From Tubulanus polymorphus (Eukaryota; Nemertea; Palaeonemertea; Tubulaniformes; Tubulanidae), in assembly GCF_964204645.1 (NCBI RefSeq), contig NC_134032.1:11588275-11652274 (forward strand): a stretch of DNA of 64,000 nucleotides, written 5' to 3'. The notes under the pieces are model-generated. The model was not told the origin of the DNA. It searched no databases and saw only the letters and a program-made list of their open reading frames with translations. The position numbers and the translations under genes were made by a program. Below are positions 3,000 to 64,000 of the stretch, piece after piece (the first letter of the stretch is position 1; each line of letters starts with the position of its first letter).

Positions 3000-3278
3000 A
3001 GGTGATGTCCGGCACGCCACCAGTTGTGTTAAATCATAACCATCAAGTGCTGCCCCTATATACGAGATTGACGGTAAACATAGGAACTAACTCGAAATCA
3101 TATCATTCCTACTGTTGCATGCGAGTAATAAATTAGTTTCGATATTCGCCAACGATATTTTTAGGGGCAGCACTGGACGGTTACGATTTCGCACCTGATG
3201 CAAACTGAGAAACGCTGATTGAATCAACTTGAATCTCGGTGCAGCGCCGTTTTCACGCTTGAAAAAGCTTTTGAGTTA
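3000..3278 (+). promoter_or_regulatory. Conserved promoter-like block with dyad element, gene B (P1)
   Basis: Shared with 10500, 22575, 33975 and 42285, each ahead of an N exon. A ~130-bp dyad spans 3046-3174: the left arm begins AGTGCTGCCCCTATA and the right arm ends TTAGGGGCAGCACT, around a conserved centre resembling CTGTGGCATGCGAGTAAT. A conserved tail (TTGAATCTCGGTGCAGCGCC) leads to a possible donor at 3279 (TTA|GTATGT). I read this as transcription start region plus non-coding exon 1, joined to the acceptor at 5090. No TATA box is obvious. Confidence 0.5.
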
Positions 3279-3709
3279 GTATGTCAGTATTCTGTCTATG
3301 AGGGAAACCTGGCTAATTTCAATTCCCCGATTGTCAGTCAAAAACGACGTCATTTGGCTGACTTTACTCCACCACCAGGCTCTGCCTGGTCCACGTACCA
3401 CACCACACACGCCATCATGGTACACGTCACACACATGCACTGGGCTGATGAAATTTACCTTAATCACGATAAACAATCACCGGTCCCCATCTTAACATCG
3501 ATCATGTCCCTGTTTTATACATGATGATCCAACGCTTTGTCCACACAGGGCTTGTATTTGAAGTTTGGCGGGGCCTGGGGCAAGAAATTTTAAAATTTTG
3601 AAGCATTTTAGATGCATTTCAAGCCAATGTTGGTGAATATTTCATAAGAAAGTCACTAAGTCATGAAATCTAATTACTTTTCTTCTGAAGTAGTGGAACT
3701 CTGGATCTT

Positions 3710-4544
3710 CAGGGGCGGACCCAGGGGGATGGGTAGACAGTATTGGAAGGAAATTTAAGGGCACCTTTCTGATCTTAGGGCACACCCAGTATCCAGGTCA
3801 ATGCGAGCGCCGAAGGCGCGAAGTCCTTAGAGGGGGGTCTGGGTTTTCAAAATTTTGAAAATATGGTACCATATAAAGGCTTTTAGAGGGCTTCTAGAGG
3901 CTAGCAGAGCAATCCAGAATAAACGAATTCGAGACAAGATTTCAACAGATGCGGATAAAAAATGAAGCTGGCGAACCCATGAAAGAATGGTTGTCGCCAA
4001 CTTCGCCTAGTGCCCCTATAATCTTTAAAAGTGCCCCTTAACAATTATACAGAATACGGCTAAGTGCCCCTTCATTGTTAACAATCGGCAAAAATTGCCT
4101 CGTCTTCACATTTATCCTTATGTCGTGTGCCATCTTCCAAACCAAAAGAGCCCCTAAAATTTTAAAAATTAGGCAAAAAAGTGCCCTTTTCTTCAACATT
4201 TTCCGCGTATAGTGCCCTCTTCTAAAGTACGAGTGCCCCTTTAGCCCTCCCTGAAAAGGCAAGGACAAGGTGCCCTCATCTAAAGCATGAGTGCCCCTTG
4301 CAAAAGGAAAGTGCCCTTTTTAATTTATCATGATTAAAGGCTTTACAAATATGATTATCTCTCCTCACTTTCTCGGCAGCGGTATATACCGATTAATTTT
4401 ATAATTATGCCCGGATTACGGACACGGAATTAGCGGTTGCTGAAATAATGCCGTCAAAAATATTGCCGGTGAAATTTCGAAGGGCACTTAAAAATTCTAG
4501 ACCGTATTGGGCAATACGGCTAATACGGTCTGAATCCGCCCCTG
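3710..4544. mobile_element. Non-autonomous DNA transposon, ends CAGGGGCGGAYYCAG
   Basis: Bounded by CAGGGGCGGACCCAG and, inverted, CTGAATCCGCCCCTG. The interior has GAGCGCCGAAGGCGCGAAG and repeated GTGCCCCTT stretches but no long open frame. A relative sits at 35397-35748. It lies in the presumed first intron of gene B. Confidence 0.65.
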
Positions 4545-4871
4545 ATCTTGTGGGGAGGTGCGCTCGGATCCAACACGCCTCCCCTGGGTACGGGCCAGTT
4601 ATCAAAGCCCATATTCAAGTGCATGTGTCCACAACATCATGCGGAACCACCTTGTACAGCAGCCGGGCCTGTTTTTATAACTCATCCCTAGATTAAACCT
4701 TTGTACATCAGCGCATGCCAGGGTTTCAAGGAATGAAGGAAGTGCAGCCAGGGTTAGGCCTTGTGTAGGGGGAGTCAATGAAACCCTGGCAAATGAGAAT
4801 GCCTTCAAAATACAGGACCCTAATGCAACTCCATTGAATGTGGGTTTTGTACGCACCCTTGATTAAAAGCC

Positions 4872-4985
4872 TGGGCCCGGTTTTATAGACTGATATAACC
4901 TTTAACCTGGGGGCTAACTCAATTGATAATGAATTGAGTTAGCCCCTGGGTCATAGGTAACACCAGTCTTTAAAACTGGCCCCTG
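4872..4985. mobile_element. Foldback MITE (GGGCCCGGTTTTATAGACTG)
   Basis: Near-palindromic: CTAACTCAATT faces AATTGAGTTAG at the centre, and GGTTTTATAGACTG faces CAGTCTTTAAAACTGG outside. A related copy is at 19237. Confidence 0.6.
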
Positions 4986-5120
4986 AAGATTAAGGCATTG
5001 TTCAAGGAATACAAACCCTAAAAGTAAGGTACCTGTGTGCAAGGGATTCTAAAACTCCCAAAGACTAAACTAAATTTCTTCAATTTTCAGAAGTTATATA
5101 GATAGAGAAGTGATGTTAAA

Positions 5121-5268
5121 ATGTTGCTGTTGGAAGGTGTCGAGGTGCACGTATGCGAGGATGCATTTAAAAGTTGTCTGCGTCAACACATGGATTGGTT
5201 AGATGAATTAGTTATTGATGCTGATGATAGTACCTGGTTTAGATGGATGTCTCGACGTCAAACTAAAG
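5121..5268 (+). CDS. N-terminal module exon, gene B (three residue changes)
   Basis: Acceptor TTCAATTTTCAG ends at 5090. ATG at 5121 starts 49 residues beginning MLLLEGVEVHV, and the exon ends ...AAAG before GTTCGT at 5269, phase 1. Compared with the C, D and G copies it has three changes, all nonsynonymous: Arg to Cys at residue 12, Arg to Gln at residue 22 and Asn to Ser at residue 37. Two look like CpG transitions. With the frameshifts in this gene's linker and ZF exon, this suggests relaxed selection. The module is a short, charged, Trp-containing, probably helical domain that I cannot assign to a known family. Confidence 0.75.
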
Positions 5269-5992: not shown

Positions 5993-7004
5993 ATCAGAGC
6001 CTTCAAACTCATCAAACGTCCGGAGATGGAAGCGAAACGCTCGATGCCAATCAACCAAAAACTGGACAAAAAAGACGATTTGAAGTTCAAAGCCGAACAA
6101 GAACTGTCGCTCAGAACGTTTTAAAAGCTGTGAAATGTGGCAGAAGAGGTGCAGCTGTACCGGGGGCGTTACCGCAGCAACGAGGTTCAACAATCACAAA
6201 CGGTGACGGCCAGCAGTGGTAATCTTGATACTCAGTTTCAACAACAGAGGACGCCACTGCGTACTAGCCAATTAACAGGTGTTAAACCAGCTCCACCTGG
6301 TGGTGAATCACCCAGAATATGGTTACAATTGGAAATCGACTTGAAACCATCGGTTACCAACGTTGTATCCCAGCGACAATTGAATGAATCAGAGAATGTG
6401 TCGTCAACAGCTACGGTCAGCTCGGCATCGGCGGAAACCGTCAATTTCTCAGTTCTAGATTTAAATGGTTATGAAATATCATCAAGCGCCGAAATCGAAT
6501 CAACTTTAGAAAGTATCAGAAATGCAGGGGAGGAATCAGACGATTCTACGATTCCTGACGATTCAAACGTTCGCGTTGACGTGCCATCGACAAATAGAAA
6601 TGAAACTATCCCCGAACAGTCGAGTGAAAGTGGATTATCGACACCCCCACCCCCGGCGATCTCCTGCTGCGAATACGCATTAGAAAAAATAAAATTGATC
6701 GTAAGTTCAGCTCCGTCGTTCGATCAGTTAGAAATATCTAGCAGCGCCACTGGTGGCGAAAACATCGAACTAAAATATAGTGAACAATTAACTGATACGA
6801 ATACCGCTGATATCAATACACTTCCGTTCCAACAATCGCATCATCACCTAGGTAACGGAGAAGGTGTTAAAAAAAAACTGATGAAAATTGAAATGGTTGA
6901 AATATCGTCAGGAAGCAACGATGATGATGATTATTCAACTCAACAGATCATACGACAACAACATGATCCACAACCGGGAACAAGTGGCAGTTTTAATCAA
7001 TCAG
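5993..7004 (+). pseudogene. Linker exon, gene B, with 1-nt insertion
   Basis: Acceptor TTTGCAG ends at 5992 and the donor is CAG|GTAGGTGT at 7004, as in every linker copy. The exon is 1012 nt where a phase 1-1 exon must be a multiple of three. An extra G near 6180-6183 (CAACGAGGTTC against CAACGAGTTC in gene C) shifts the frame, so the entry frame stops at 6222. After the shift, a second frame keeps the rest of the linker, including the acidic C-terminal motif, to the donor. The motif EISSGSNDDDDYSTQQ is still readable, so the damage is recent or an assembly error. Confidence 0.75.
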
Positions 7005-8312: not shown

Positions 8313-8859
8313 GTTTTGTGATCGGACCGGCGCGGCATGTCGAAAAGGACCGTGAGATTGAAAACGAGCAGAATTTGTCAGGGATGGTGATGTCAGTTCC
8401 TCCGGAAACAGTAGATCACAATGTACATCGAAAACACCAGTGCAGTTTTTGCGAAAAGCGGTTTTTTTCATTCAGAGATTTAAATCGGAACTTATTCACA
8501 CCGGCGAAAAACCGTTTAAATGTCCGATATGCGAGCAACTTTTTAAAGATAAATCAGACTATCAACGGCACATGAAATGGGTTCATATCTACCCGTGTGT
8601 TAGACCGTTTAAATGTCGGTATTGCCAAAATGGGTTTAAATCTCCTGGAGAACTTGGACAACACGAACGAATTCACACCGGTGAAAAGCCGTATAAATGT
8701 CCGATGTGCGCGCTACGTTTCAATTGGAAATTACACCGTAATTTGCACGTGGAAGCGGTTCATAACAATAAAAAACCGTTAAAATGTCCGATATGCGAGA
8801 AATGTTTCAATCAGAAACATCACTATAGAAATCACATGAAACGCGTTCATAACGCCTGA
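8313..8859 (+). pseudogene. Five-finger C2H2 exon, gene B, 4-nt deletion in finger 1
   Basis: Acceptor GGCTACTTGCAG ends at 8312, phase 1. The entry frame reads a lead matching the exon at 18287 (IGPARHV...), then CSFCEKRFF. The helix of finger 1 lacks about 4 nt (CGGAACTTATTCAC where paralogues read CGGCACGAACGAATTCAC), so this frame stops at 8575. The neighbouring frame is open to 8859 and carries four clean fingers: CPIC H-x4-H, CRYC H-x3-H, CPMC H-x4-H and CPIC H-x4-H, ending RVHNA. AATAAA is at 9129. All lesions of gene B together suggest a young pseudogene. Confidence 0.7.
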
Positions 8860-10489: not shown

Positions 10490-10860
10490 AGAATTGTTCC
10501 GATTGCAAAAACCTCAGGCGGTGTCCGGCCCGCAACCAGTTGTGTTAGATTTTGCCCGTTTAGTGCTGCCCGTGAATACAACATTAGCGGTAAACACCCG
10601 AACTAACTCAAATACACACAATCTTTACTGTGGCATGCGAGTAATCAATTAGTTCGGACATTCGCCGTCAACGATATGTATAGGGGCAGCACTTGACGGT
10701 TACGATGCGCACAAGTTGCCCGCCATGATGCGAAACTTCTGATGATAGTTTGCAAGTTTGCTTTCCTCTGGATTTGTAACCGAGAAACGTCGAACAAGTG
10801 ATTGAATCATCTTGAATCTCGGTTCAGCGCTATTTTACGCATAATAAAGCTTTTGACTCG
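10490..10860 (+). promoter_or_regulatory. Promoter-like block with dyad element, gene C (P2)
   Basis: Dyad at 10562-10693 with the centre CTGTGGCATGCGAGTAAT. It is preceded by the shared CCTCAGGCGGTGTCCGGCCC stretch and followed by TTGAATCTCGGTTCAGCGC. A donor-like CTCG|GTATGT lies at 10861, aligned with the stronger CG|GTAAGT of P3. Inferred: start site near TTCAGC, with a non-coding exon 1 spliced to 13011. Confidence 0.5.
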
Positions 10861-10890
10861 GTATGTCTGTATTCTGACTGCGAGGGAAAC

Positions 10891-13010: not shown

Positions 13011-13032
13011 AAGTAAGAGAAGTGATGTCAAA

Positions 13033-13180
13033 ATGTTGCTGTTGGAAGGTGTCGAGGTGCACGTACGCGAGGATGCATTTAAAAGTTGTCTGCGTCGACA
13101 CATGGATTGGTTAGATGAATTAGTTATTGATGCTGATGATAATACCTGGTTTAGATGGATGTCTCAACGTCAAACTAAAG
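13033..13180 (+). CDS. N-terminal module exon, gene C
   Basis: Acceptor CAATTTTCAG ends at 13010. ATG at 13033 starts 49 codons plus one base, and the donor is AAAG|GTTTGT. The sequence is the array consensus except Arg to Gln at residue 46. Features: a hydrophobic start (MLLLEGVEVHV), a charged stretch around DAFKSCLRRHMDWLDEL, then acidic IDADD and the Trp pair in TWFRWM. No known effector domain is recognised. By position it should serve as KRAB, ZAD or BTB do in other ZF families. This start is chosen because it is the first ATG after the acceptor in all six copies. Confidence 0.8.
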
Positions 13181-13469: not shown

Positions 13470-14477
13470 ATCAGAGCCTTCAAACTCATCAAATGTCCGG
13501 AGATGGAAGCGAAACGCTCGATGCCAATCAACCAAAAACGGGACAAAAAAGACGATTTGAAGTTCAAAGCCGAACAAGAACTGTCGCTCAGAACGTTTTA
13601 AAAGCTGTGAAATGTGGCAGAAGAGGTGCAGCTGTACCGGGGGCGTTACCGCAGCAACGAGTTCAACAATCGCAAACAGTGACGGCCGGCAGTAGTAATT
13701 TTAATACTCAGTTTCAACAACAGAGGACGCCATCACGTACTAGACAATTAACGCGTGTCAAACCAGCTCCATCTGGTGGTGAATCACCCAGAATATTGTT
13801 ACAATCGGAAATCAACTTGAAACCATCGGTTACCAACGTCGTATCGCAGCAACAATTGAATGAATCGGAGAATGTTGTGTCATCCATAGCAACAGCTCCG
13901 GTCAGCTCAGAATCAGCGGAAACCGTCAATTTCACGGTTCTAGATTCAAACGGTTGTGAAATTTTATCAAGCGTTGATATTGAATCAACTTTAGAAAGTA
14001 TTAAGAATGCAGAGGAGGAATCGGATGATTCTATGATTCCGGATGATTCAAACGATGCAGCATCGACGAATAAAAATGAAACTAACGTCGAACAGCCGAG
14101 TGGAAGTGGATTATCGACACCCCCGCTCCCGGCAGTATCCAGCTGCGATTACAAGTTAGAACAATTAGAATCGATCGTAAGTTCATCTCCGTCGTTTGAA
14201 CAATTTGAACTATTTAGTGGCGCCGCCAATCCCGAAAAAGTGGAACTAAAATACAGTGAACAATTAACTGATACGAATGCCGCTGATATCAATACGCTTC
14301 CGGTCCAACAATCACATCATCACCAAGGTTATGGCAGCATTAAAAATGAACCAATGAAAATAGAACCGGTTGAAATATCGTCAGGAAGCGACAATGACGA
14401 AGATTATTCAACTCAACAGATCGTACAACAACAACATGATCCACAACCGGGAACAAGTGGAGCTTTTGATCAGTCAG
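13470..14477 (+). CDS. Linker exon, gene C (335 residues, intact)
   Basis: Acceptor GTTTGCAG at 13469, donor TCAG|GTAGGTGT at 14477, 1008 nt, phase 1 at both ends. The first codon is completed as GAT. In order: QMSGDGSE start, basic GQKRRFEVQSRTRT and a KAVKCGRRG cluster (nuclear-localisation-like), PGALPQQR, a long Ser/Thr/Pro/Gln-rich disordered region with EIxSTLESIKNAEEES, STPPLP, and at the end IKNEPMKIEPVEISSGSD then DYSTQQIVQQQHDPQPGTSG. MKIE resembles a sumoylation site, and VEISSGSD followed by acids resembles a SUMO-interaction motif. It probably tethers the N module to the fingers and recruits partners. Confidence 0.85.
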
Positions 14478-15534: not shown

Positions 15535-15947
15535 ATAGCCGGGTCTCCGCATCACCTCCATGGGAACCGCTGCAATATGAAGGAGTTACAATCGAAGGGA
15601 GTCTTTCTCGTAGCAACGGCTTCAGGTCTAAGTCTCAGTCGAAACCGATGACTGGTGGCGCCACCGGTGGTGATAGTATGAAATATAAATGTCAGCTTTG
15701 CCGTAAGGGATTTATTCGACCGTCAGATCGTACGCAACACGAGCGAATTCACATCGGTTACAAACCGTTTAAATGTCCTACATGCGAACGAGGATTCAAG
15801 CGGAAAGCTCACTGTGACCTGCACATCAAACGCATTCATACCAACGACAGACCGTTTAAATGTCAGTTTTGCGAAAAAGCGTACGCTTCAATCGGAGAAA
15901 AAAACCAACACGTGCGAATACACGCTGGTGGCGAAACGCTGTTCTAA
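15535..15947 (+). CDS. Three-finger C2H2 exon, gene C, shortened by a stop codon
   Basis: Acceptor GGCTCTTTACAG ends at 15534 and two bases (AT) complete a phase-1 codon. About 36 residues of lead, then a Gly-rich TGGATGGDS, then CQLC H-x3-H, CPTC H-x4-H and CQFC H-x3-H. A TAA at 15945-15947 stands where paralogues have AAA in the linker motif KPFKC. The next finger (CPTCGKCFN...HMARVH) stays in frame for another 90 nt, followed by a second stop. So a single nonsense change removed finger 4. A protein ending after three fingers is still possible. A more decayed copy is at 28735. AATAAA is at 16431. Confidence 0.65.
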
Positions 15948-24516: not shown

Positions 24517-24549
<33 letters not shown>

Positions 24550-46210: not shown

Positions 46211-46403
46211 GTGAGTTTAGCTTCTTTGTGGCCAACATTTATGTGGCCAATAATTATTGCCCTTCTTGTCGGGTGCTACCCCTCAATATAAGCTCTGGAT
46301 CCGCCTCTGAACAAACTATGATGTTGCATGCGTAATCTCCATAGAATGAACATGTATTTGTGTTAACATGATTCTATTTCTCTGTTTTCTCTCCTTACTA
46401 TAG

Positions 46404-47638: not shown

Positions 47639-47788
47639 TAATGTAGCTCCTGAAAACGTTTGCTAGAATAAATTGATATACTCATTAGAAAATGAGATTT
47701 GTACTGTTTTTGCTTCTATGGATTTTCAACTATTTGAACTCTCTACCAAAGATTTATTCGATATCAATCTCGTGTTTTATCTTTTCAG

Positions 47789-48800: not shown

Positions 48801-49244
48801 GAATAAAAAGCATTATATTCTATGTTCTAAAGTTCTATTTATTTTCGGCTGCTGAATTTGGGAATAATTTCTCTCGTTGATTTCGAGGATCGGGAAATGT
48901 ATCTCCTTGACTGATCTTGATCTTGACTCTATCTCGCTGCCGATGCGTTGACAAATTCCTGGACTAAATGATTGTGTTATTTTGTTAAGTGCTGGCAATG
49001 TGATCAAAATAAATTTCATTTCAAATCCTAAAACTCCTCATATGACCTTAAAACGTAAGTCTCATTGATAGGGGATGAGCGTGAAAATCGGGTATAACTT
49101 TAGAACAACCCGCGTGTAGACGGGGTAAATTTGTTGGAATAAAGGACATTTGAGTTTGGTTGGCGGCACTCAACCGTACCGTGGCGACATCTACGATTAG
49201 ACTGGTATCGCTCTTCTTGGTTAGAAGCTGAATGGGGCTAGCCC

Positions 49245-49306
49245 CACTTCAACGCCGTTTTCACGCTCAATTAAGCTTGCGAATTGATGATTTCAACTCG
49301 TAATCG
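49245..49306 (+). promoter_or_regulatory. Conserved exon-1-like block, gene G (P6), without the dyad
   Basis: ACTTCAACGCCGTTTTCACGC matches P1 (GCAGCGCCGTTTTCACGC), followed by AAGCTT and the donor TAATCG|GTACGT at 49307, aligned with P3 TTAATCG|GTAAGT. The dyad found at the other promoters is absent or unrecognisable upstream. Confidence 0.45.
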
Positions 49307-50314
49307 GTACGTCAGTGTTGTCACTATAAGATGAACCGATTTAAATCTATTTTCACTGCTTGACTTGTAAATAAAACGATGTCATTAAACCACCCAGGAA
49401 GAAATTGAATGTAAAAAACAAGTGCTGCCATCTACCGTTGGCGTTGGCTTACCTTGAATTATTTAAAAATGTAATCTAGTAAAAGAAAGGCAAACTTTCG
49501 GTAATCTTGCCCCTTAGTTTAATGCATCGAACATTGATCCCTGCACTGTAGGCCTGTCATTGCATTATTGGTATGATCAATTCCATCAATCCAATGATTG
49601 ATGGATCAACTATATATAGAAACACTCACAAACATAAACAGCAACAAACAGATGAACCTTTTCTTTATTCAATTACACCACAGTAAGTGCATTATTAGGG
49701 AATTGCCTGCTGCACCTGTGACTGGTTGGGCAGGGTCCAACTGGATAAGGGTAACACATTCCTCTGTTGATGTGTGACTTACATGAATCGGGGTGTTAGT
49801 AGTAAATTCCAGCGCTGCACCTGGATTTCAACCAAGTCCATGGTTCTAATGCTAATTTACTAATCACTGGCACTAGTGACCAGTTATTGTTTGAAAGTTC
49901 TCTAATTGATGCTAATACTGCAATAGATTCTTATTAAACTCATTGCCATGATTTCCAAGTATGGTTATTCCACCAATTCATTCAGTGAATTGAAATAAGA
50001 TGATTATTTTGTGGGAATTATATCTTAGACAATACGCTCTATTTCACAAATCATAAATTAATGATGTAAAGATATTTTGAAATGATCTTAAGTGTTTTCT
50101 ATGCTATTGTTTCCAAAAATTGGTAAATTTAGGAAAATGGTTTTTGGGGTAAATAAGGGGTATTGAAATAGTAGGGATCCCCTGGCTATGAGGCATTGTT
50201 CTAGAAACATTAGGAAATTAAGTTAGAATTTGTGTTTCTCTTCTGATTTTAGGAACTTTTTATAAAACTGAACTCAAAGTTTCTGAAAGAATATTTTCAA
50301 ATTCAATTTTTCAG
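49307..50314 (+). other. Presumed first intron of gene G
   Basis: AT-rich. No gene or named repeat seen. Ends in the acceptor TTCAATTTTTCAG. Confidence 0.4.
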
Positions 50315-50340
50315 AAGTTAGATAGAGAAGTGACGTCAAA

Positions 50341-50488
50341 ATGTTGCTGTTGGAAGGTGTCGAGGTGCACGTACGCGAGGATGCATTTAAAAGTTGTCTG
50401 CGTCGACACATGGATTGGTTAGATGAATTAGTTATTGATGCTGATGATAATACCTGGTTTAGATGGATGTCTCGACGTCAAACTAAAG
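50341..50488 (+). CDS. N-terminal module exon, gene G
   Basis: Acceptor TTTTTCAG ends at 50314, ATG at 50341, donor AAAG|GTTCGT. Identical to the gene D copy as read by eye. The next intron is only 95 nt, against 290-725 nt in the other genes, so a compact constant N-plus-linker unit precedes the large ZF array. Confidence 0.85.
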
Positions 50489-50583: not shown

Positions 50584-51771
50584 GTCAGAGAAGAGGACAA
50601 ATACATCAAATGTCAGGAGATGGAAACGCAATGTACATCGGCACAAATCAATCAAAAACCGGACAAAAAAGACGATTTGAAGTTCAAAGCAGAACAAAAA
50701 CCGTCGCTCAGAATGTATTAAAAGCTGTGAAACGTCGGAGAGGAGGTGCAGCTGTACAGGGGGCGCTACCGCAGCAACGAGTTCAATCACAAACAATGAC
50801 GGCTGTCGGGCAGCAACCGATCGGTCTGTTACCAGCTCAACAGAGAATGACGCCCAATCGAGGAGGTCGCGGAAGAGGAAGAGGACGAGGTTTACCTCCT
50901 CGTCACGTTTCACCGGCTATGAACATTCCTCCTATGAATATGGGAAACCAACCCGGAGTCCATCAAATATCACCGGCTAATAGTGTTCGCAATCTTAATA
51001 CGCAATTTCACCAACAACAACAGAGGACGCCACCTCGTCTTATTACACAGACAACACCCATTAAACCAGCTCCACCTGGTGGTGAATCGCCGAGAACACC
51101 GTTACAGTCGGGAATGGACTTGAAACCATCGGTTACCGACATCGTATCGCAGCAACAGTTAAATGTTGTGTCGTCGACGGCAACAGCTCCGGTCAGCTCG
51201 GCGTCAGCGGAAGCCGTCAATTTCTCCATTTTAGATTCGACCGGATGTGAAATTTTATCGAGTGCCGAAATCGAATCAACTTTAGAAAGTATTAAAAACG
51301 CCGAAGAGGAATCAGATGATTCTACGATTCCCGATGATTCAAATGTCGATGCAGTATCGACGAATAAAAACGAAACTAACGTTGAACAGCCGAGTGAAAG
51401 TGGATTATCGACACCCCCGCCCCCGGCTGTCTCCAGCTGCGATAACACGTTAGAACAATTAGAATCGATTGTAAATTCCGCTCCGTCATTCGAACAATTA
51501 GAAATGTCTAGCGGCGCCACCGGTGGCGAAAATATGGAGATTAAATACAATGAACAATTAACTGATTCTGCTGCCGATATCAACATGCTTCCATTACAAC
51601 TACAACCGTCGCATCACCAAGGTTACGGCAGCGTTAAGAATGAACCGATGAAAATAGAACCGGTTGAAATATCGTCAGGAAGCGACGATGATGAAGATTA
51701 TTCAACTCAACAAATCATGCAGCAACAACATGATCCACAACCGGGAACGAGTGGCGGCTTTAATCATTCAG
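50584..51771 (+). CDS. Linker exon, gene G (396 residues, RG-rich insert)
   Basis: Acceptor TTAATGCAG at 50583, donor TCAG|GTAGGTGT at 51771, 1188 nt, phase 1-1. Starts GQRRGQIHQMSGDGN. Basic KRRFEVQSRTKT and KAVKRRRGG. A ~60-residue segment found only here follows: LLPAQQRMTPNRGGRGRGRG, LPPRHVSPAMNIPPMN and VHQISPANS. The RG run resembles RNA-binding or arginine-methylation regions. Then the common Ser/Thr/Pro-rich part with AEIESTLESIKNAEEES and the end VKNEPMKIEPVEISSGSD, acids, DYSTQQIMQ, HDPQPGTSG. This is the only linker in phase upstream of all ZF exons from 53267 on. Confidence 0.9.
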
Positions 51772-53266: not shown

Positions 53267-53586
53267 GTTTGTTTCTCGCGACCGCGTTGTTCAATCCTCC
53301 GTCAGCCGAACTCGCGCCCGTCGGACAACATTCTCACAACGTCGATGGCGCCACTGCGTCGTCCCCTACGAGTCGAGGCGGCGTTACGAAATGGAAGCAT
53401 AAATGTCGTTTTTGCGATCGCGTTTGCGGCAGTAAATCGGATATCGCTCGACACGAGCGTATTCACACCGGCGAGCGACCGTTTCCGTGTCCGATGTGTA
53501 GCATGAGTTTTACTCTGAAAGGAAATCGTCGTCAGCACATGGAACGTATTCATAACTATAACAAAGCGTTCTTCAATGATATTTAA
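53267..53586 (+). CDS. Gene G zinc-finger exon 1 (two fingers)
   Basis: Acceptor TTCTCATCGCTTTTTGCAG ends at 53266, phase 1. Lead LFLATALFNPPSAELAPVG..., TKWKHK, then CRFC H-x3-H, TGERPF, CPMC H-x4-H, and the tail NYNKAFFNDI. Closely paired with 54340. Lead and fingers resemble the exons at 39 and 18287, so this is probably the ancestral type. Confidence 0.85.
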
Positions 53587-53614
53587 TGATGTTCCGACGA
53601 TCCTACCGGTGTCA

Positions 53615-53915
53615 AAAGCGAGGATCCACCAGGTGTCGTTATATTGTGCTGCATTCGTAGATTACTGCGGTATTTGACGATTCCACTTGTGGCAAGTGAT
53701 GATCCACCAGGTGTCGCTAGTGTGCAGTAGTCATAGATAACTGCAGCGTTCGGGAATTCCATTTGGGGCAAGTTAACATCCACCAGCAGGTGTGCTAGTG
53801 TGCGGTAGGACAATTCAATTACTATGGCAAGTGAACATCCACCAGGTGTTCTATTGTGATATAGGATTACGCAAATGCTGTGGCAAGTGAGGATCCACCA
53901 GGTGTCGCTCTGTTG
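53615..53915. repeat. Five copies of ATCCACCAGGTGTCG in a 54-80 bp array
   Basis: Cores near 53623, 53702, 53778, 53837 and 53893 with flanking GGCAAGTGA and ATTGTG words. In the 3' UTR of exon 53267. Each contains CACCAGGTG, an E-box-like palindrome of the Snail/ZEB type. Confidence 0.75.
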
Positions 53916-54196
53916 TGCAGGAGTTTATATTTAGCTTGAGGATTAAAGTATGATTAGATGTCACCTCGCTCCCAAACTAGATGTTTTCATTTCGTGTTGG
54001 AAAGACTTAAGATTGTTTCTATGTTCAATACGCTATACATTTAGGGGCAGACCTTCTTAAATCGTCGACATCAAACTTTTCTACTTCTAAATGTTGGAAT
54101 CACTGATCGACATCAGTTAAAAGCAGTTTTTTACCAACTTGACAGTTATTATCGGTTGTGTTTATAGCTTCAAAATTTTAAATACATCGCTTTTTT

Positions 54197-54202
54197 AATA
54201 AA
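54197..54202 (+). terminator. Poly(A) signal AATAAA
   Basis: Between exons 53267 and 54340, so the first exon appears to be an alternative 3' end with its own signal. Confidence 0.5.
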
Positions 54203-54339
54203 CAGTGGTTTTGACATAGAAAACTTACTTTCGTTTATATTTCTGTTTCGACATCAGAATCTCGAGGGTTTGAATTGGGCGCGGAACCCCGTCCGATATC
54301 CGACCTATTCTTAAATTCAGTTCTCATCGCTTTTTGCAG

Positions 54340-54656
54340 GTTTGTTTTACGCCACTGCGTCGTTCGATTATGGCGCGTCTGCCGAACTCGCGACGGGCAG
54401 ACGACGTTCTCGCGTAAGTGGTGGCGCCGCTGTTGACGACGACACAAGCGAACCGACGAAATGGAAGCATAAATGTCGTTTTTGCGATAAACTCTGCAGC
54501 AGTAACGCGGATGTCGTTCGACACGAGCGTATTCACACCGGCGAACGACCGTTTCCCTGTCCGATGTGTAGCATGAGTTTTAATTTGAAAGGAAATCGTC
54601 GTCAGCACATGCAACGAATGCATAACTATAACAAAGCTTTATTCAGTGATATTTAA
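54340..54656 (+). CDS. Gene G zinc-finger exon 2 (two fingers)
   Basis: Acceptor TTCTCATCGCTTTTTGCAG ends at 54339, phase 1. Lead LFYATASFDYGASAEL..., TKWKHK; CRFC H-x3-H, TGERPF, CPMC H-x4-H; tail NYNKALFSDI. Tandem duplicate of 53267. The fingers differ mainly in finger 1 helix residues (SSNADVVRH against GSKSDIARH). Confidence 0.85.
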
Positions 54657-54922
54657 CACAGTTCTGAATCGCACGGCGGTGTTCAGCGGTGGTGTGGCGC
54701 GGAGGCATCGAAACAGAGGTTTTTTCGTTTTGATTCGTAAATCGGCGCCCAGTTTTCTAAATCAATTATATCATTGGAAATGATCTTATTTCAACCCGGA
54801 ATTAGATCGTACTGGACTCGGTTTAAAAAAAAAATTTCCAACGGTTGAATGAAAATTTGTCGGTGGTGGTTGAAAAACTGAAATCATTTCTAATCCTCGG
54901 TTCTCATGGCTCTTCGTTGTAG

Positions 54923-55275
54923 GTGGCCTGGATTTCGGACATTGCGGTGATGCGTTGCCATGGGAACGCAGGATTACCGAACACGACGGAGCCGGGATGT
55001 TTATATCGCCCGACGACGAAATCCGACCGACGCTGCCGACGAGAACGAGCGCCTGGGCGTCGCGCGCGCGCGATAAGAAGTGTCGATTTTGCGACAAGTG
55101 TTTCCCGTCGCCGACGGAGACGCGGCGTCACGAGCGCGTGCACACCGGCGAACGTCCGTTTCGATGCCCGATGTGCGAGAAGTGTTTCAAACATAAGTAC
55201 GATCGCAAGAAACATCTTCGCGCCCTTCACAACTTCGATGAAAACGCGTGGGACAAAAGCTTAACTCTGATATAG
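54923..55275 (+). CDS. Gene G zinc-finger exon 3 (two fingers)
   Basis: Acceptor TCTTCGTTGTAG ends at 54922, phase 1. A lead of ~50 residues (LDFGHCGDALPWERRITEHD, SPDDEIRPTLP, then an Ala/Arg stretch), CRFC H-x3-H, TGERPF, CPMC H-x4-H, tail NFDENAWDKSLTLI. High GC. The decayed counterpart in gene C is 15167. ATTAAA at 55513 may end it. Confidence 0.85.
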
Positions 55276-55779
55276 TCTCAGGCAGGGGGCGTGTACGTCG
55301 TTCGGAACTGTGTTCGAAAAGTCCGAGATACATTTGAAATATTTCACGGTGGTTAAACATATCAGTTATCGGTTGCAGAATGGATAGTTTATAGAATAGA
55401 GGTTTCCGGGTCCTGATTTGACTATGTAGTGCCTTCTTCTGGCTGAATTTTGCAAAAATATGTCGCATTTCTATCTAAACTTTTTGTTTAGTGGTTATTT
55501 TCTTATTTTTTTATTAAAGAAAGACTCTCTAAAGAGCATTAATTAATTAATTTAAGGCAGTAATGATTGTTTTTTTGTTTTAGCTGCCTGTTTATGTAAA
55601 TCAAGGGCAACTTCTGAAAATTCGGGTTTCGTAATGCATTCGCTGCGAAAATCGAGATATCTCGAGTTTCACGGTTCAACCCCTGACAACCCTGCCTCCC
55701 TACCTCCACCCCCTACCCCATGTTTACTACTTACAATATTTAACTCTTACTGATATAAGTTTCCCTTGGCATTTTGCAG

Positions 55780-56120
55780 GTGAACTGAACCTAATGCCGA
55801 GGGAAATCTTCCAATACGACCTAAACTACCGACATTTGTTATACTCGGTCAACGCGAGCCTACCGTCGCCACCTGGCGGTAGTTATCATCATCACCATCA
55901 TCATCACCAGAAAGCGATGACTAGATGGCGCTCTTTGCCGTTGAAATACGACTGTCAGATATGTTTGAAAAAGTTTCGAACGCCGACGTTGTTGAAACGG
56001 CACATTCGCGTGCACACGGGCGAAAAGCCTCACCGATGTCAGGTGTGCGGGGAGGGCTTCGCCGAGCCGGCTAATTACAATCGGCACGTACGTAGAAAAC
56101 ATCCGCCATGGGGCAGTTAA
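55780..56120 (+). CDS. Gene G zinc-finger exon 4 (two fingers, His run)
   Basis: Acceptor TTGGCATTTTGCAG ends at 55779, phase 1. Lead ELNLMPREIFQYDLNYR..., LPSPPGGSY followed by seven His in a row, then CQIC H-x3-H, TGEKPH, CQVC H-x4-H, short tail PPWGS. Only copy of this type in the window. Poly(A) signal AATAAA at 56910. Confidence 0.85.
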
Positions 56121-56649
56121 AATATCGGTGAGGAGGGATGCACAGTACTGTTCTCCATACGCTGTCTGCAGTTTTTTAAGAAATCTTAATTCAATTCTTA
56201 TGTTTATGATATGTCGTGGCTGCTGAAGTAGCGAGGCTTTCGATCCCTCGGAAAAAATACTGAAACTTAAGCTTAATTTAAGTGTCATTTTGCACATTAG
56301 CTCAATATATTTCAAAGCATTATCAGCATTGATAGAATATTGACATCCACGCCGGACGGGGCAGCAGATATTTCATAAGGGGTGGCTGTGAAAATGAAAG
56401 GGCTGGCCGACCTTCTAAAACCTGGAAAACATAGGAAAGGTTTGTGGAATTGTCAGGGGCAGTTGAAAACGTCAATGAATGCAGATTCCATCAGGGTATA
56501 TGGGAACAGGATATGAAAGGGTTAAAATTCAATAAGCATGCTATTTGAGACACAATCTGTAAATGGTCTATTATATTAATGCAGAATTTAAGAACACTCT
56601 TGATATTTTGTCAACTGTCAGTTATTTGTTGTTCGAGGCTGAAAAATGT

Positions 56650-56841
56650 GATACCTTGTTTCTCCTAATCGGCTGGGCCACTTTTCCATAGTGCAATAAA
56701 ATTTGTTATCAGTTCATTTCAATAGCTGCCAGGTGTTATGGTTAGATTGGTCATGATTCTTAAAAAGTTATGTACAGGATATATATGCAGCCAGCCGGGT
56801 CAACTTTTAAGCTCGGCAGAAATCATGAGAAACAAGGTATC
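56650..56841. mobile_element. GATACC MITE, best-preserved copy
   Basis: GATACCTTGTTTCTC at the left and GAGAAACAAGGTATC at the right are perfect inverted ends, 192 bp, no coding capacity. Other copies are at 398, 31785 and 59670. Confidence 0.85.
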
Positions 56842-56909
56842 AATTTTGTTATCCTTATATACGTATTATGAATACGTTTATGTTTATCTTAAAGAACAAA
56901 GTATAAATG

Positions 56910-56915
56910 AATAAA
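56910..56915 (+). terminator. Poly(A) signal AATAAA
   Basis: 790 nt after exon 55780, before exon 57230. Confidence 0.4.
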
Positions 56916-57229
56916 GTTATATTTAATAATCATAGAAATTATCGTTGTTGATTATTATTCTTTTTAATGCTCCGTAGACGGATTTAACGACGCAAAATGT
57001 TGTTTTTCATCGTAAATTCATGAATTTCAAGAGAACCACGGGATTGTGTGCGGGACTGGCCTGACCGGTGAGAACCATCAAGGGACTGACTGTATGACTA
57101 ATGCCTCGTAAACCAATTGAACACTGAAATATTTGCCTCAATTCTTGTTGCAACAATATTATCCCAGTTACCATGACTACACATGTAATGGACGAATTGT
57201 AATTGAGTTTTCCCATTACAATTTTGTAG

Positions 57230-57579
57230 GTGAAATCAAGTCCGGTGGCTCCACCTATTGGTCATCGTCTACATACGCGAATCGAGGAGGCTTTCGGTCG
57301 CCGCGTCAGAGTAACAGGGAATATCGCCCCGGCCAGGGGGGTGGTGGCGCTAGCGCAGCCGGAGCGGACGATCTGAGACGACATCAGTGCGAAATTTGCG
57401 ATAAACGATTCGCGTCGGCTTCGTTGTTGAAGATTCATCATCGCGTTCACACCGGCGAAAAACCGTACGTCTGCGCCGTCTGCCAGAAACGATTCACTCA
57501 AATCGGCAGCTTAAACGTTCACTTGAGAAAAGTGCACAACATACTGTACTGCGTGTCTGCGGACGGAGCTCGGAAATAG
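57230..57579 (+). CDS. Gene G zinc-finger exon 5 (two fingers)
   Basis: Acceptor TACAATTTTGTAG ends at 57229, phase 1. The lead is Ser/Tyr/Arg/Gly-rich ([27 protein letters not shown]), then CEIC H-x3-H, TGEKPY, CAVC H-x4-H with [11 protein letters not shown] and tail [13 protein letters not shown]. Finger 2 and the NIL tail resemble the four-finger exons at 2047 and 20507, which look like expansions of this finger. Confidence 0.85.
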
Positions 57580-58037
57580 GAACTTAACATCTCAATCAGA
57601 CGGATCCCAGAAATAGGAACTTAATGTCTCAATCAGACAGAATCTGGAAGTATGAACTTTCCATCTCTATCAGACAGAAACCTGTGATAGGAGGTCGCTG
57701 CCCGACTAGCAGCTATCTCCCCATCTAGTCAACAAACCCTTTCAGAAATGATACTCTCTACAGGTCATCGGACATGAGACCCCCTACCAGTATTAATGCG
57801 CCCCAACTGGTCGGATGAACGTAGTGCACGTGATAGGAATAATATTCGAAGTGGAGTCGAAGCGCTGTTTCCAATCTGATGAGAATTTAAAAATTGACAT
57901 GACCATATGTTAGAAAATATCTGAATGAAATGGACTCATGATTTAGGAGATCGCATGACTTCAAATTGATATTCAAATTTATCAAATATTTGAAATAATT
58001 TCGAAATGTTATCCCAGTTTCCCATTGCATTTTGCAG
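57580..58037 (+). other. Intron or 3' region between exons 5 and 6 of gene G
   Basis: Begins with three short repeats of GGAACTTAAYRTCTCAATCAGA-like sequence (57578-57670). No gene seen. Confidence 0.4.
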
Positions 58038-58402
58038 GTGCGTCGTGGGAAACTGGAGGTTACCGGAGAATGCCGCCGCGGAATCCGTTGTCTGCCGCGA
58101 GGAACGTGCAACAACGACGACCGCCGTACGTCGTCGCCGTCACTAGGCAACCGCAGCCGTTGGCGACGGTGAAAAGCGACGTACCGCGGCCGCATCAGTG
58201 CGACGCGTGCTACAAGGCGTTCACGTCGCGAACGAATCTGGAAATACACAAACGCGTTCACACGGGCGTTCGTCCGCACGTCTGCCCGGTGTGCAAGAAA
58301 CGATTCACGCAGAAAGGAAATTTGAAAACGCATTTGCGCACGGTGCACAACATACTGAACTGTGTAGCCGCGGACGGCTCCGATAATGCGAACGTTCCCT
58401 GA
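58038..58402 (+). CDS. Gene G zinc-finger exon 6 (two fingers)
   Basis: Acceptor GCATTTTGCAG ends at 58037, phase 1. Arg/Pro-rich lead ([20 protein letters not shown]), CDAC H-x3-H, TGVRPH, CPVC H-x4-H with [11 protein letters not shown], tail [17 protein letters not shown]. Duplicate of 57230. Confidence 0.85.
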
Positions 58403-58482
58403 AAATCATTTAAAAAAAAAATGGGCAACAGAGAAAACACTTCGATCGATAAACTGAGTGAACAAATCAGAAATTGTTTAAC

Positions 58483-58772
58483 CCTTTCAGTGCGTCTACA
58501 CCGCAGTGCGGTGTATGAATCGGTGATGTATTTTGCTAGTACACCGCACTGTGGTGTATTGATGTAATTAGTAATTAGTTTATATATCTATTGAAAGATG
58601 GCAGTACCTGTCAAACATAGTTAAATACTAGTAACTAATGATACACCGCGCCGCGGTGTAGATGCACTATAGTGGTATTCCCGTTATTCAGCACACTAGG
58701 GTGGAATTTTTTTTAATTTTCAAATTATCTCCAGCACTATAGGGTATTGATTAGTCAGCACTGAAGGGGTTA
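58483..58772. mobile_element. ACACCGC hairpin element, reverse copy
   Basis: Reverse complement of 23040-23297. Begins CCCTTTCAGTGCGTCTACAC and ends AGTCAGCACTGAAGGGG. The ends CCCYTTCAGTGC are inverted, so this is likely a full MITE of ~290 bp. The rest up to 59670 shows nothing recognisable. Confidence 0.65.
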
Positions 58773-59669
58773 AAAATGTTTTGGATTGTCAAAATTGTAC
58801 TGAACCAGAAAATGGTTTTTACGAAACTTTTAGTTGAAAAATATTGACCTTTAAGTTATCAGTGTAGCGAATCAGAAAGATTGGTTTCGAAGAGAAATGA
58901 TCTCATTATTATTATTATCAAAAACATTGATCAAAGATTTTTTTAACTTTTGTTGAAATGTTTTGTCAGAATCAGAAAATGGTTGCAAGAAAACATTTTG
59001 TTGAAAGTTCTCTTCTTATTTACCTTTAATGAACAGCCCCAAGGTTTGGAATCGTCAATTAATTTCATCGTTCGAACGCCCTGGTTTCTTGTGCGTTTAA
59101 TATTAATATCTCTTAATATAATATTAACATAAATATCATTATTTACTTCAAAATTACGAGTCATTTCGGGTACCAGTTAGTTAGGGTACCAGAAGGTGTA
59201 TGTTTGCATTTATAGCTTTATTTTTACTCAATTGACTAGATACAGAAATTGCATATATGTACTTAATGTTTTGACGCATGCATTAGAGTATACTTGTATA
59301 TGGTAGTTCTATTAGAATGAAATATATCAACTGTATGTTAAAAACAGAATTAGTTGAAATTTTTGAACGACGCATTATCAGAGCTGCCAACTGTTACTGA
59401 TTTCAGTTATTTTTTACTATTTTCATCTAGAAACACTGATTTGTTTGTTTGATATCTACAGAAATGTGACAGATGCTGCTACACAGGAGCGTCCTGCCGT
59501 CGATTACCGATAAATTTGAACTTTTTTTTCGTATTTCGATGAAATGTTCCTGAAAAGAAAATCAATACATTGTTGAATGCACGTTACTGAGGTTGGCAGC
59601 CCTGAATTCTATGAAATTCGATTTGATCGTATCGAATTTATGTGCGGTGGCTATTAGCTAAAGAAAAAT

Positions 59670-59858
59670 GATACCTTATTGCTCCTAATCGGTTGGGTCA
59701 GTTTTGTAGACCGCAATAAAATTTGTAATCAGTTCATTTCCTTAGCTGTCAGGTCTGTTATGGTTAGCCGGATTTCTAAAATAAAAAGTAATGTTCGGGG
59801 TAGATAGGCTGCCGGCCAGGTCAACTTAAAGGCAAGCAGATGGAGAAACAAGGGACCT
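59670..59858. mobile_element. GATACC MITE copy
   Basis: GATACCTTATTGCTCCTAATC ... GGAGAAACAAGGGACC. Shares its interior with 56650. Confidence 0.7.
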
Positions 59859-60084
59859 ATTTTTCTAGCCTTAACACATTCGCCGCTTGCTTGACAATAC
59901 AGTGGCGCCCCCAAGTGCTGCATGAATTCGCTGTTAGATAGGCTCAAACAGCCATTTTGGCAGCTACAACTTTTAACACGATGACATCTATCAGGACTTA
60001 AGATATTTTTCAACAAAATCGGTGATGATTTATACCAAAAATATGCCAACAAATCATTTATTTTGAATCGTCATTATCTTCCAG

Positions 60085-60485
60085 GTGGCATTTTCAACAA
60101 TGATGACCTGCCATTAGGCATCAAAGATTTTCCGGGACAGTTCGGTGGAACGTTTCCTTCGACTATGACGTCCGTCGCTAGCGCAAGCGGCCATCAACGA
60201 CGGAGGAAATCGTCGTATCCGGGAATGGGCAGAAATCGTTCGGCTGGATTCGCTGCGAGTCGTTCCTCTGACGCCGGTGCCGCGGCCGGCGGCAGTTCGA
60301 TCGAATTGATGGTGAAAGGAATTTGTCCGATTTGTAAGAAAGATTTTCGCTGTCGCTCAGCGCTGGAGAAACATATGCGCGTTCATACCGGCGACAACCC
60401 GTTCGCTTGCGACGTTTGCGGCCGCACGTTCAATCAGAAAGGATCGTTGAACAGGCATCGGAAATTCGTTCATCAACTGATCTAG
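60085..60485 (+). CDS. Gene G zinc-finger exon 7 (two fingers)
   Basis: Acceptor TATCTTCCAG ends at 60084, phase 1. Lead GGIFNNDDLPLGIKDFPGQF, Ser/Ala/Gly-rich part, IELMVKGI then CPIC H-x3-H, TGDNPF, CDVC H-x4-H with FNQKGSLNRH, tail QLI. First of a group of three (also 60810 and 62547). Confidence 0.85.
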
Positions 60486-60809
60486 TCACTTCGCAGCCCT
60501 AAATGATGTAGTGACTTATCTTAAAACTCTTACTATACAGGACAATTGAACATGACTTTCGATCGATAAGGATAGACTTATACCAAGAATGAGATAGTGA
60601 CAGCATGCGTTTTTTCGGTGTTTGGTGTGGTGGAAGTTTCATTTATTAACTATTTTATGTCTACGTTGAAAACTGTATGATTTATACCGGTTGTTAGATA
60701 ATCAATCTGCTGATGGTCGTCACATGTACGCTGATTAGAAATCCGTCTGCTCACGTCGCGATTCTAAACAATTATCAACCAGTTATTTTCAATCGTCGTT
60801 ATTTTCCAG

Positions 60810-61207
60810 GTGGCGCACTCGGCAATGTCGACATGGTATTTGGCGCGATGGATCTCCCTGGACAGTTCGGAATGTACACGAATCCAAATCTGGAAATTAC
60901 CCGTAGCGGTCGTGGTGGTCACCAACGAAGGCAGTCGTCAATGTTGCCGGGGACTGGCAGACGTCGCCAGGCGGTTGTCACGGGAAACAGTCCGCTCGCC
61001 GCAGCTGGTGCCAGTTCGATCGATTTGATGGTGAAAGGAATTTGCCCGATCTGTAAAAAAGATTTCGGTTTTCGCTCGGCTCTGGAGAAGCACATGCGGG
61101 TCCACACCGGCGACAACCCGTTCGCTTGCGAAGTTTGCGGCCGCACGTTCAATCAGAAGGGGTCGTTGAGACGGCATGAAAAAAATGTCCATCGTATTGT
61201 GAATTAG
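60810..61207 (+). CDS. Gene G zinc-finger exon 8 (two fingers)
   Basis: Acceptor TTATTTTCCAG ends at 60809, phase 1. Lead GALGNVDMVFGAMDLPGQF, IDLMVKGI, CPIC H-x3-H with FGFRSALEKH, TGDNPF, CEVC H-x4-H, tail RIVN. With exon 61609 it forms a pair duplicated as 62547 plus 63256. Confidence 0.85.
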
Positions 61208-61608
61208 CCTCTAGGTGGCACTACAGCAGTCTGAATACCAGACTATGTACGGATAGATACTAGACTAGCACTGCGGAGATCTACATAGCCACTAGATCGC
61301 GATGTGGTTGGCTATTGAGCATTCCATAGGGGCTGGCATGATCCATTTGTTGATCAGTTTTTTATGTGGGCTCTTAACTGAAAAATGAAATTTATGTTGA
61401 CTTCTCTTTCAATGCCCCAAAGGGTTTCATTGTAAATATTTTAGTGACAATTTATTTGGTGCCATTTTGACTTTTGAACAATAATGCTTGATAGCGATGA
61501 AGTTTTAGAGTTTACCCATGTGTATAATGTCTGTCAGTGGTGTAGTAGACTTTATTGCTTGAATTATTTCAAATGAAATAAACCAATTTATGTGTCGAAT
61601 TATTGCAG

Positions 61609-62030
61609 GTGTTGATGATGAAAACTTTGTATTGTCTCCAACGACAACACCGGCAATGGCAGACGGACATATGATACCAAACCTGTCCCAAATCGTCGTT
61701 AACCGGTCCAATTACAACCCGGCAGTTTGGATGAAGGATTATTCCGTTCCGAAGCGGTCATTTACATCAGCGCTGCAAGTACGACCTCCATGTGGCAGTA
61801 TAAGAACGGAAGAACCCATTGCGACTGCATCTACACCTCATTCGAAGGTCGTTACATTGCATAAATGTCTCGTTTGCGCGAAGTGTTTCCAGACAAAATC
61901 TAAGTATAAACGTCACTCCATGATACACACCGGCGAACAACCGTTTCAATGTCAGTTCTGCCAACGATTGTTCAATCAGAGATCATCGCTCATGCGTCAC
62001 ATGACCAGTATCCACGGTTGTGTGGAATAG
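61609..62030 (+). CDS. Gene G zinc-finger exon 9 (two fingers)
   Basis: Acceptor GAATTATTGCAG ends at 61608, phase 1. Lead VDDENFVLSPTTTPAMADGH..., WMKDYSVPKRS, VVTLHK then CLVC H-x3-H, TGEQPF, CQFC H-x4-H with FNQRSSLMRH, tail GCVE. Intron end TGTGTCGAATTATTGCAG is shared with 63256. Confidence 0.85.
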
Positions 62031-62546
62031 AGAGATTTGTCTGCTAGCTGAGCGTGGCTGGATATACAAACGGCATATACAGCATGAAAATCCGTTTTCA
62101 CATTTATTAGATCATTGGTGGCGTGGAATGAAAGTCCGTCTGCTCATGTTGCATTGTCTGCTCGTGTTTTGAAATATGCGTCGTAGCTCGGAATACGAAG
62201 TTGTGGTTTAAAACCACATTCAGTGACAGTTTACGTTTATTTCAGTCTATAGAACCGGGTCCAAATATTTAGGATTATCCCATTGTTACAGCGTCTAAAA
62301 AATCCCGACTGTGGTTTGGTTCGCGCTCTCATTATTGGTTTTTCTTTTGAACTTCGCGGGTTTATTGGAATATTCTAATATCGACTATTCTATACCTATT
62401 CATTGAAAACTGTCTACGCTGGTGTTAGTCCGTCTGCTGATAATCATCACACATACGTGTACACATGATGAAAATCCGTCAGCACACGTCGACATTTCGT
62501 ATTAACATATTTCACTAAGTTATTTTAAACCGTAATTATTTTCCAG

Positions 62547-62938
62547 GTGGCGTCCCCGACAATGATGACCTGGTATTTAACGCAATGGATATCCAAGGAC
62601 AGTTCGTAATGTACGCTGACCCGAATCTGGAAATATCTGCGAGCGGCCGTGGTGGTCACCAACGAAGGAAATCCTCGTTGCCGGGTGCTGGAAAACGTCG
62701 TCGTGCGGGAGTCACGGGAAACAGTCCGCTCGCCGCAGCTGGTGCCAGTTCGATCGATATGATGGTGAAAGGAATTTGCCCGATTTGTAAAAAAGATTTC
62801 GGTTTTCGCTCGGCTCTGGAGGTACACATGCGGGTTCACACCGGCGACAACCCGTTCTCCTGTGAAGTGTGCGGTCGCTCGTTCAATCAGAAGAGTTCGT
62901 TGAAACGACATAAAAGGAACATCCATCATATGAATTAG
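62547..62938 (+). CDS. Gene G zinc-finger exon 10 (two fingers)
   Basis: Acceptor TTATTTTCCAG ends at 62546, phase 1. Lead GVPDNDDLVFNAMDIQGQF, IDMMVKGI, CPIC H-x3-H with FGFRSALEVH, TGDNPF, CEVC H-x4-H with FNQKSSLKRH, tail HMN. Duplicate of 60810. Finger 2 contact positions differ slightly (QKSSLKRH against QKGSLRRH). Confidence 0.85.
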
Positions 62939-63255
62939 AAGCAGGCGCCAATCTGTATTTATAATGAAGCCACTAGATGGCGACGTGGTGGTCTACAGAA
63001 CCCTGAACCCTGTGGCAAAGCATTTTCATCCGGTTCAGTTGATCTGCGTACTGTGGATTTTTTTACAGAAAGCAGAAATTCATGTCAACTCAACTGAATA
63101 TGTTTAGAAGATTCTGTTATAACGATGATACCTGATAGCGAAAATGTTTTAGAGTTAGCAAAGTTGTTTTGGGTCGGCGGTGTTGAAGAGTTTCTAGCTG
63201 AAATCTCAATTTCCTGAAAATATAATAAACTGTTTTATGTGTCGAATTATTGCAG

Positions 63256-63680
63256 GTGTTGATGTTGATGAAAACGTTGTATTGTTTCCGACGACAACAT
63301 CGGCAGTGGCAGACGGACAGATGATACCGAACCAGTCTGAAATCTCCGTTAACCAGTTCGCTTACAACCCTGCCTTTTGGCTGAAGGATTATTCCGTTCC
63401 GAAACGGTCATCCACATTGTTGCAACAAGAACGACCTCCGGGTGGCGGCGTTAGAACAGAAGAACGCATTGCAGCACCATCTAAACCTCGGTCGAAGGTT
63501 GTTACGTTGCATAAGTGTCTCGTTTGCGCGAAGTGTTTTCAGACGAAATCTTCGTATAAACGTCACTCAATGATACACACAGGCGAACAACCGTTTCAAT
63601 GTCAATTCTGCCAACGATTATTCAACCAGAGATCGTCGCTCATGCGTCACATGACCAGTATCCACGGTTGCGTGGAATAG
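63256..63680 (+). CDS. Gene G zinc-finger exon 11 (two fingers)
   Basis: Acceptor GAATTATTGCAG ends at 63255, phase 1. Lead VDVDENVVLFPTTTSAVADG..., WLKDYSVPKRS, VVTLHK, CLVC H-x3-H with FQTKSSYKRH, TGEQPF, CQFC H-x4-H, tail GCVE. Finger 2 is the same as in 61609, so DNA specificity probably differs little. The array may continue past the window: 63681-64000 shows no further exon. Confidence 0.85.
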
Positions 63681-64000
63681 AGATCGATGATATTCTGAAG
63701 GTACTCGATTTTTTGTTCGGATACTAGAGAAATTGAAATGAAACTATCGCGACAAGTTGCGAGAAATTTCCGATCCCACCATCGGAAGAAGTTTACTTCA
63801 ATTCTTTCCTGCATTTAGAAACTGAAATCAAGGGCAAACTGGGATACAAAACTAGGACGTAGGACACTGACCATGGAAGATCTATCTAGGGAAGATACAC
63901 TTAAGAATTGTGTAAATCGAGTCTTGAAGATCCGTCTGCTAGCTACGCGGCTGAATATACTAATGGTCATGCAGTTTAAGAATCCATTTTCAGATTTTCT

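Follow-up and report, generated by a model that had tools for sequence, protein, structure and literature searches.

In the KRAB, SCAN and ZAD clusters, C2H2 zinc-finger genes stand in tandem, their N-terminal module occupies a separate exon and change is seen at the DNA-contact residues. The clustered protocadherins are also made up of tandem units, whose promoters resemble one another and whose segments are homogenised. In Drosophila, the genes lola and mod(mdg4) join a constant start to many alternative ends. Among the 20 isoforms of lola, 17 carry different C2H2 ends; mod(mdg4) has at least 30 isoforms with ends that are mostly FLYWCH and not C2H2, and the TTK-type BTB domain has reportedly not been found beyond the arthropods (PMC11426971). 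Here we describe a C2H2 zinc-finger gene cluster of about 250 kb in the 267.8 Mb genome of the palaeonemertean Tubulanus polymorphus. The cluster encloses the stretch G000:C8:11588275-11652274, which is called the window (64,000 nucleotides, nt) and supplies the positions given below. It is quite likely a tandem cluster of sister C2H2 genes, whose end-rich units would be lola-like in pairing a constant start with varied DNA-binding ends.

At the sequence level, the end-rich units of this cluster resemble lola and mod(mdg4) in their constant start and many candidate alternative ends. They differ from both in that no BTB domain was found at E values up to 0.01 in the four Tubulanus models scanned (P0002-P0005), and in that the constant cassette is present 15 times in the cluster. 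Moreover, mod(mdg4) stands apart in that most of its ends are FLYWCH. By analogy, the Tubulanus system appears to work like lola, yet it is not a BTB gene. With the KRAB, SCAN and ZAD clusters it has in common the tandem C2H2 arrangement, the separate exon for the N-terminal module (here called N) and the change at DNA contacts; it departs from them in that N has no Pfam match to any of the three, and in its banks of separate two-finger terminal exons, where those clusters have one long finger array per gene. The tandem units, similar putative promoters and homogenised segments recall the clustered protocadherins, but the polarity is reversed, the 5' part being constant in Tubulanus and the 3' part variable. 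No paper about this cluster turned up in the literature, as judged by titles and the starts of abstracts.

Results

Searching the whole genome with N gave 33 matches, 15 of which lie at C8:11.41-11.64 Mb (six on the minus strand and nine on the plus strand). The array runs on to the left of the window, with 15 N exons, each accompanied by a linker exon, in a joined region of 264 kb. Units inside the window are labelled W1-W6; those upstream of it are called p1-p3 on the plus strand, and m1-m6 are the units of the minus strand. In m4, the N match of the genome search begins only at residue 8. There are 102 frames with at least two fingers in the joined region. When each frame is credited to the nearest preceding N on the same strand, p1 receives 35, p3 18, W6 12 (11 of them in the window) and m6 10, while the remaining units have at most five each and W5 none. 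The system is real and ordered, is larger than the window showed, and was partly misread as one locus in an earlier sequence-only reading.

The public gene models show how the exons are joined. Two protein searches, with exact placing of the pieces, gave six public proteins that start with N; they come from five loci and all continue into a linker. From their naming style, we take them to be automatic models and not transcripts. LOC141909526 (P0002) consists of N, the third linker and the exon at 31997, and LOC141910368 (P0003) of the second N, the second linker and two zinc-finger exons. In LOC141909519 (P0005 and P0006, the latter representing 4 sequences), the fourth N leads into two or three linker copies, separated by short pieces, and the end is the exon at 40835. 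LOC141909522 (P0004) runs from the fifth N and linker to a non-C2H2 end at 45952-48027, and LOC141909538 (P0001) joins N, the p2 linker and a short end. The N of each of P0003-P0006 is found only in the named unit; the N protein is the same in W3, W6, p1, p2 and m6, so the unit assignment of P0001 and P0002 rests on linker and end. Linker and end lie within one unit in all six models. Since no model crosses from the linker of one unit to an end of a second, a row of sister genes is a better fit than one shared pool, and the idea of a single locus with six promoters feeding shared zinc-finger exons is not upheld. The proposed order of 5' block, N, linker and end is carried by sequence, phase and the public models of W2, W3, W4 and W5, that is, four of the six units. 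No public model was found for W1 in the protein searches.

The window N exons, all on the plus strand, lie at 5091-5268 in W1 (protein 94% identical to that of the W6 copy, splice signals), 13011-13180 in W2 (LOC141910368; the only place matching N of P0003), 23381-23543 in W3 (LOC141909526; its protein is that of the P0002 N, which W6, p1, p2 and m6 match as well), 35804-35986 in W4 (LOC141909519; the only place matching N of P0005 and P0006), 43331-43512 in W5 (LOC141909522; the only place matching N of P0004) and 50315-50488 in W6 (tblastn match, splice signals), with ATG codons at 5121, 13033, 23396, 35839, 43365 and 50341. The sequence-only reading had counted six N exons and none elsewhere in the window, and tblastn bears this out. 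The length of 148 nt that it gave is that of the coding part, the exons measuring 163-183 nt from acceptor to donor. The acceptor proposed as common to the six, CTTCAATTTTCAG, is exact in four of them and, as had been seen, has a longer T run in W6, but there is one mismatch in W2. The 148-nt copies have 94-100% protein identity, and copies so alike are not a product of chance.

N encodes a domain of about 45 residues; in its alignment, two Trp residues are invariant and the pattern is LKxCLxxHLDxLDEIVxxADExTWxRW. Pfam matched no family to N of W6, none of 18 N members scanned singly had a KRAB, SCAN or ZAD match, and NCBIfam, a bacterial and archaeal library, gave no match. Weak matches to PAH (E 0.039) and SSXT (E 0.16), in one member each of the 18, were taken as chance, and so were two matches among PDB sequences, the better of which covers 15 residues of C-Mpl binding protein with E = 1. 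The earlier statement that no described family has this module therefore held in Pfam, NCBIfam and PDB sequences. A BTB, KRAB, SCAN or ZAD identity of N was rejected, there being no such Pfam match; a possible likeness to an N-terminal helix of phosphodiesterases was dropped, with no phosphodiesterase among the two PDB matches and no direct comparison made. An artificial-consensus search for relatives in other species gave two candidates, neither of them scoring; since the engine also failed to return the dispersed copies within this genome, the null says nothing about other phyla. The structure predicted from six near-identical copies has two strands and two helices, in a weak model (mean predicted local distance difference test score 73.5, predicted template modelling score 0.38).

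A linker follows each N, as the sequence-only reading held, but the window has eight copies and not six, one per unit except in W4, which has three. They lie on the plus strand at 5993-7004 (W1), 13470-14477 (W2, in P0003), 23868-24590 (W3, in P0002), 36444-37181 and 38110-38847 (W4, both in P0005 and P0006), 40027-40293 (the short third copy of W4, in P0006 but not P0005), 43890-45230 (W5, in P0004) and 50584-51771 (W6, tblastn match and splice signals). The donor is uniform at all eight: CAG/GTAGGTGT (the slash marks the junction) occurs eight times on the plus strand of the window, each time at a linker end, and never on the minus strand. Linker length ranges from 267 to 1341 nt and is divisible by three in seven of the eight. 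The W1 linker, with 1012 nt and tblastn matches split over two frames, reads as out of frame. Linkers such as that of W6, and that of the dispersed locus L024, carry psi-K-x-E beside stretches of the type V-E-I-S-S-G-S-D-D-D-E or V-I-D-L-S-G-D-D-D, which resemble SUMO acceptor and SUMO-interaction motifs.

The conserved 5' block that had been described is present upstream of all six window N exons, at varying distance, but it falls into two partly different classes. Those of W1-W5 are alike (cores at 3235-3287, 10818-10869, 22904-22934, 34260-34299 and 42569-42609, plus strand), and that of W6 (49242-49315, with a donor-like TCG/GTACGT) groups with p3, m6, p2 and m1-m4; a short core connects both classes. 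Most W6-class blocks terminate in a donor-like G/GTACGT, GTATGT or GTAAGT, which suggests a promoter and a non-coding first exon, and the W1 core is likewise a candidate promoter or exon of the 5' untranslated region. The N exons of m6 and p1 are in divergent orientation, with 4.5 kb between them (joined region 93797-98269); in this interval the shared block is seen for m6 and none is seen for p1.

For the zinc-finger frames, the best acceptor before the first finger was taken, using a simple score of our own making. It lies in phase 1 in 88 of the 102 frames, in phase 0 in seven and in phase 2 in five, with no AG in the other two. All 11 W6 ends in the window are in phase, each with its own stop, and so are 34 of the 35 frames of p1. 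Among 248 control frames of at least 90 residues without zinc fingers, scored over their first 60 codons and not up to a finger, and including real exons such as linkers, 111 had phase 1. Scored acceptors coincide with the P0002 and P0005 junctions and with that of the first P0003 end. N, linker and most zinc-finger exons share phase 1, and at the sequence level the ends appear interchangeable; with this phase in common, an N-linker cassette could accept, by splicing, any in-phase end within its own unit. A CTNAY element lies 12-30 nt before the acceptor in 51 of 85 phase-1 exons (score of at least 1), 40 of them at -14, as compared with 12% of 5000 random AG; -14 is close for a branch point, and the excess is therefore simply recorded.

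That the cassettes end in zinc-finger exons agrees with the models of W2, W3 and W4, which terminate in C2H2 fingers, but not with W5. There the end is non-C2H2, in four pieces at 45952-48027 (P0004, domain scan), with acidic, Cys/His-rich and weakly Myb/SANT-like parts, and no frame with at least two fingers follows. Two further frames depart from the pattern in having their best acceptors out of phase: a four-finger frame in W1 (8362-8859) and the first, seven-finger frame of W3 (25391-26131, absent from P0002). W3 also has a five-finger phase-1 exon at 30351-31033, absent from P0002, and the eight-finger exon at 31997-32958 that P0002 uses. Phase-1 acceptors precede the three zinc-finger exons of W2, at 15535-15947 (used by P0003 up to 15911), 18287-18858 (which P0003 starts a few bases earlier) and 20507-20964 (four fingers, absent from P0003). 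W4 has a six-finger exon at 40835-41523, in P0005 and P0006. The bank of W6 spans 53267-63680, with 11 candidate alternative two-finger terminal exons starting at 53267, 54340, 54923, 55780, 57230, 58038, 60085, 60810, 61609, 62547 and 63256. Of the alternative ends claimed for each cassette, several in W6 are likely, to judge from the letters of the bank. At the left edge of the window, a two-finger terminal exon with a phase-1 acceptor (39-340) belongs by position to p3. All these features are on the plus strand. In the domain scans, P0002-P0005 gave zinc-finger families and one weak domain of unknown function. C2H2 domains were over the cut-off in P0002, P0003 and both W6 ends scanned (of 11), below it in P0005 and absent from P0004; P0001 has no finger by pattern.

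Selection was assessed on pairs drawn from the 85 phase-1 exons, with at least 50% identity, taken best first without reusing an exon and kept when the synonymous divergence (dS) was 0.05-1.5, others being dropped. The ratio of nonsynonymous divergence to it (dN/dS) is below 1 in 28 of 28 pairs, W6 and p1 exons among them (median 0.45, highest 0.79; single pairs without a significance test). The contact positions -1, 2, 3 and 6 differ in 168 of 388 comparisons, as against 387 of 1705 for the rest of the finger (odds ratio 2.6); for the 18 two-finger pairs, the counts are 41 of 144 and 105 of 631. Together, these values point to coding exons under constraint, in which the DNA contacts vary more than the remaining finger positions. 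The m6 and p1 banks are mostly collinear, with reciprocal best partners for eight of the ten m6 ends (scores 294-629) and one swap. Despite the close similarity between the W6 and p1 linkers, reciprocal best partners in p1 exist for six of the 12 W6 ends, with lower scores (179-287). Similar cassettes thus precede banks that differ much more.

Silent change is lower in N than in the linker in all 36 pairs from nine units (for example, dS of 0.035 and 0.264 for W6-p1, and of 0.105 and 0.583 for W6-W5). The mean dS of N is 0.085 over all pairs of 14 copies, m4 being left out, and identity drops beyond its coding part (ungapped comparison, m4 being out of register there). Either gene conversion in short tracts or a constraint on the letters themselves could account for this.

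N is not limited to this locus. Five genome searches (E up to 0.001 in the first and 0.01 in the other four; counts are lower bounds) found at least 30 diverged copies elsewhere in the genome. In the 18 of 30 dispersed loci that were read, with about 1.7-2.6 kb covered downstream, a linker-like psi-K-x-E frame of at least 60 residues lies downstream in 15, upstream in none and antisense in two, and a C2H2 frame lies downstream in seven, with none upstream or antisense. By eye, a phase-1 GT donor is present at 13 of the 15 dispersed loci whose exon ends were examined, the exceptions being L019 and L022. Head-to-head pairs like m6/p1 are seen at L024 (C7:17708871, minus, and 17711049, plus), where both copies share one N protein, and at L015 (C7:16169802, minus, and 16175987, plus).

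Discussion

From the observed anatomy, phase, coding constraint and single-unit models, we infer promoters, alternative end use and functions for N and the linker. Each unit is most likely a gene with its own start, made up of a promoter-like 5' block and putative non-coding first exon, the N exon, the linker exon and 0-35 finger frames with their own stops. By its position, N probably provides a protein-protein contact common to the units. The psi-K-x-E and acidic motifs of the linker suggest that it may recruit cofactors in a SUMO-type manner, and the last exon would choose the DNA target. Units W6, p1, p3 and m6 probably each use a single start for many ends, giving isoforms that differ in their last exon.

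Several observations weigh against this reading. No shared-type 5' block was found in the 4.5 kb before p1, the richest unit, or before m5. The control frames tilt to phase 1 too, at 45%, and sequence outside the fingers also changes (664 of 2313 positions differ). The p2 model P0001 is without any fingers. P0005 and P0006, isoforms of one gene, differ in their linkers and have a common end; P0003 joins two zinc-finger exons, so that ends need not be mutually exclusive. Fourteen of the 102 zinc-finger frames have no in-phase best acceptor (12 out of phase and two without AG), and some ends may therefore be decayed. Searches covering the expected length gave no public protein for W6, p1 or m6, with an engine that also returned no dispersed copy and is therefore insensitive. 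The last two points, together with the out-of-frame linker of W1 and the single set of ends per gene in the public models, would also fit an ordinary tandem zinc-finger cluster, in which one end is used per unit and the bank exons are for the most part disused duplicates. We regard this as unlikely, given that all 11 W6 ends in the window are open with a phase-1 best acceptor, and that dN/dS stays below 1 in every pair, including those with W6 and p1 exons. One shared locus, in which long-range cis- or trans-splicing takes any promoter to any end across units, would account for the common phase, the similar signals and the near-identity of N, but is highly improbable with linker and end drawn from one unit in six of six models and six of the 15 N exons on the opposite strand.

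Beyond the reading as tandem sister genes with end-rich, lola-like units, our opinion is evenly divided on whether the cluster is an independent spiralian counterpart of lola. Such a counterpart would have a new N domain of about 45 residues, a SUMO-type linker, 15 cassettes and about 100 swappable ends, with the p1 promoter choosing among up to 35 of them and N kept uniform across units. The lower silent-site change in N than in the linker poses a test of gene conversion against sequence-level constraint. If the reading is true, one more N-terminal domain would be added to those accompanying C2H2 fingers. Insect BTB genes are the best-known case in which a single regulated start yields many DNA-binding proteins, and a separate origin in a ribbon worm, with another N domain, would mean that this design evolves repeatedly.

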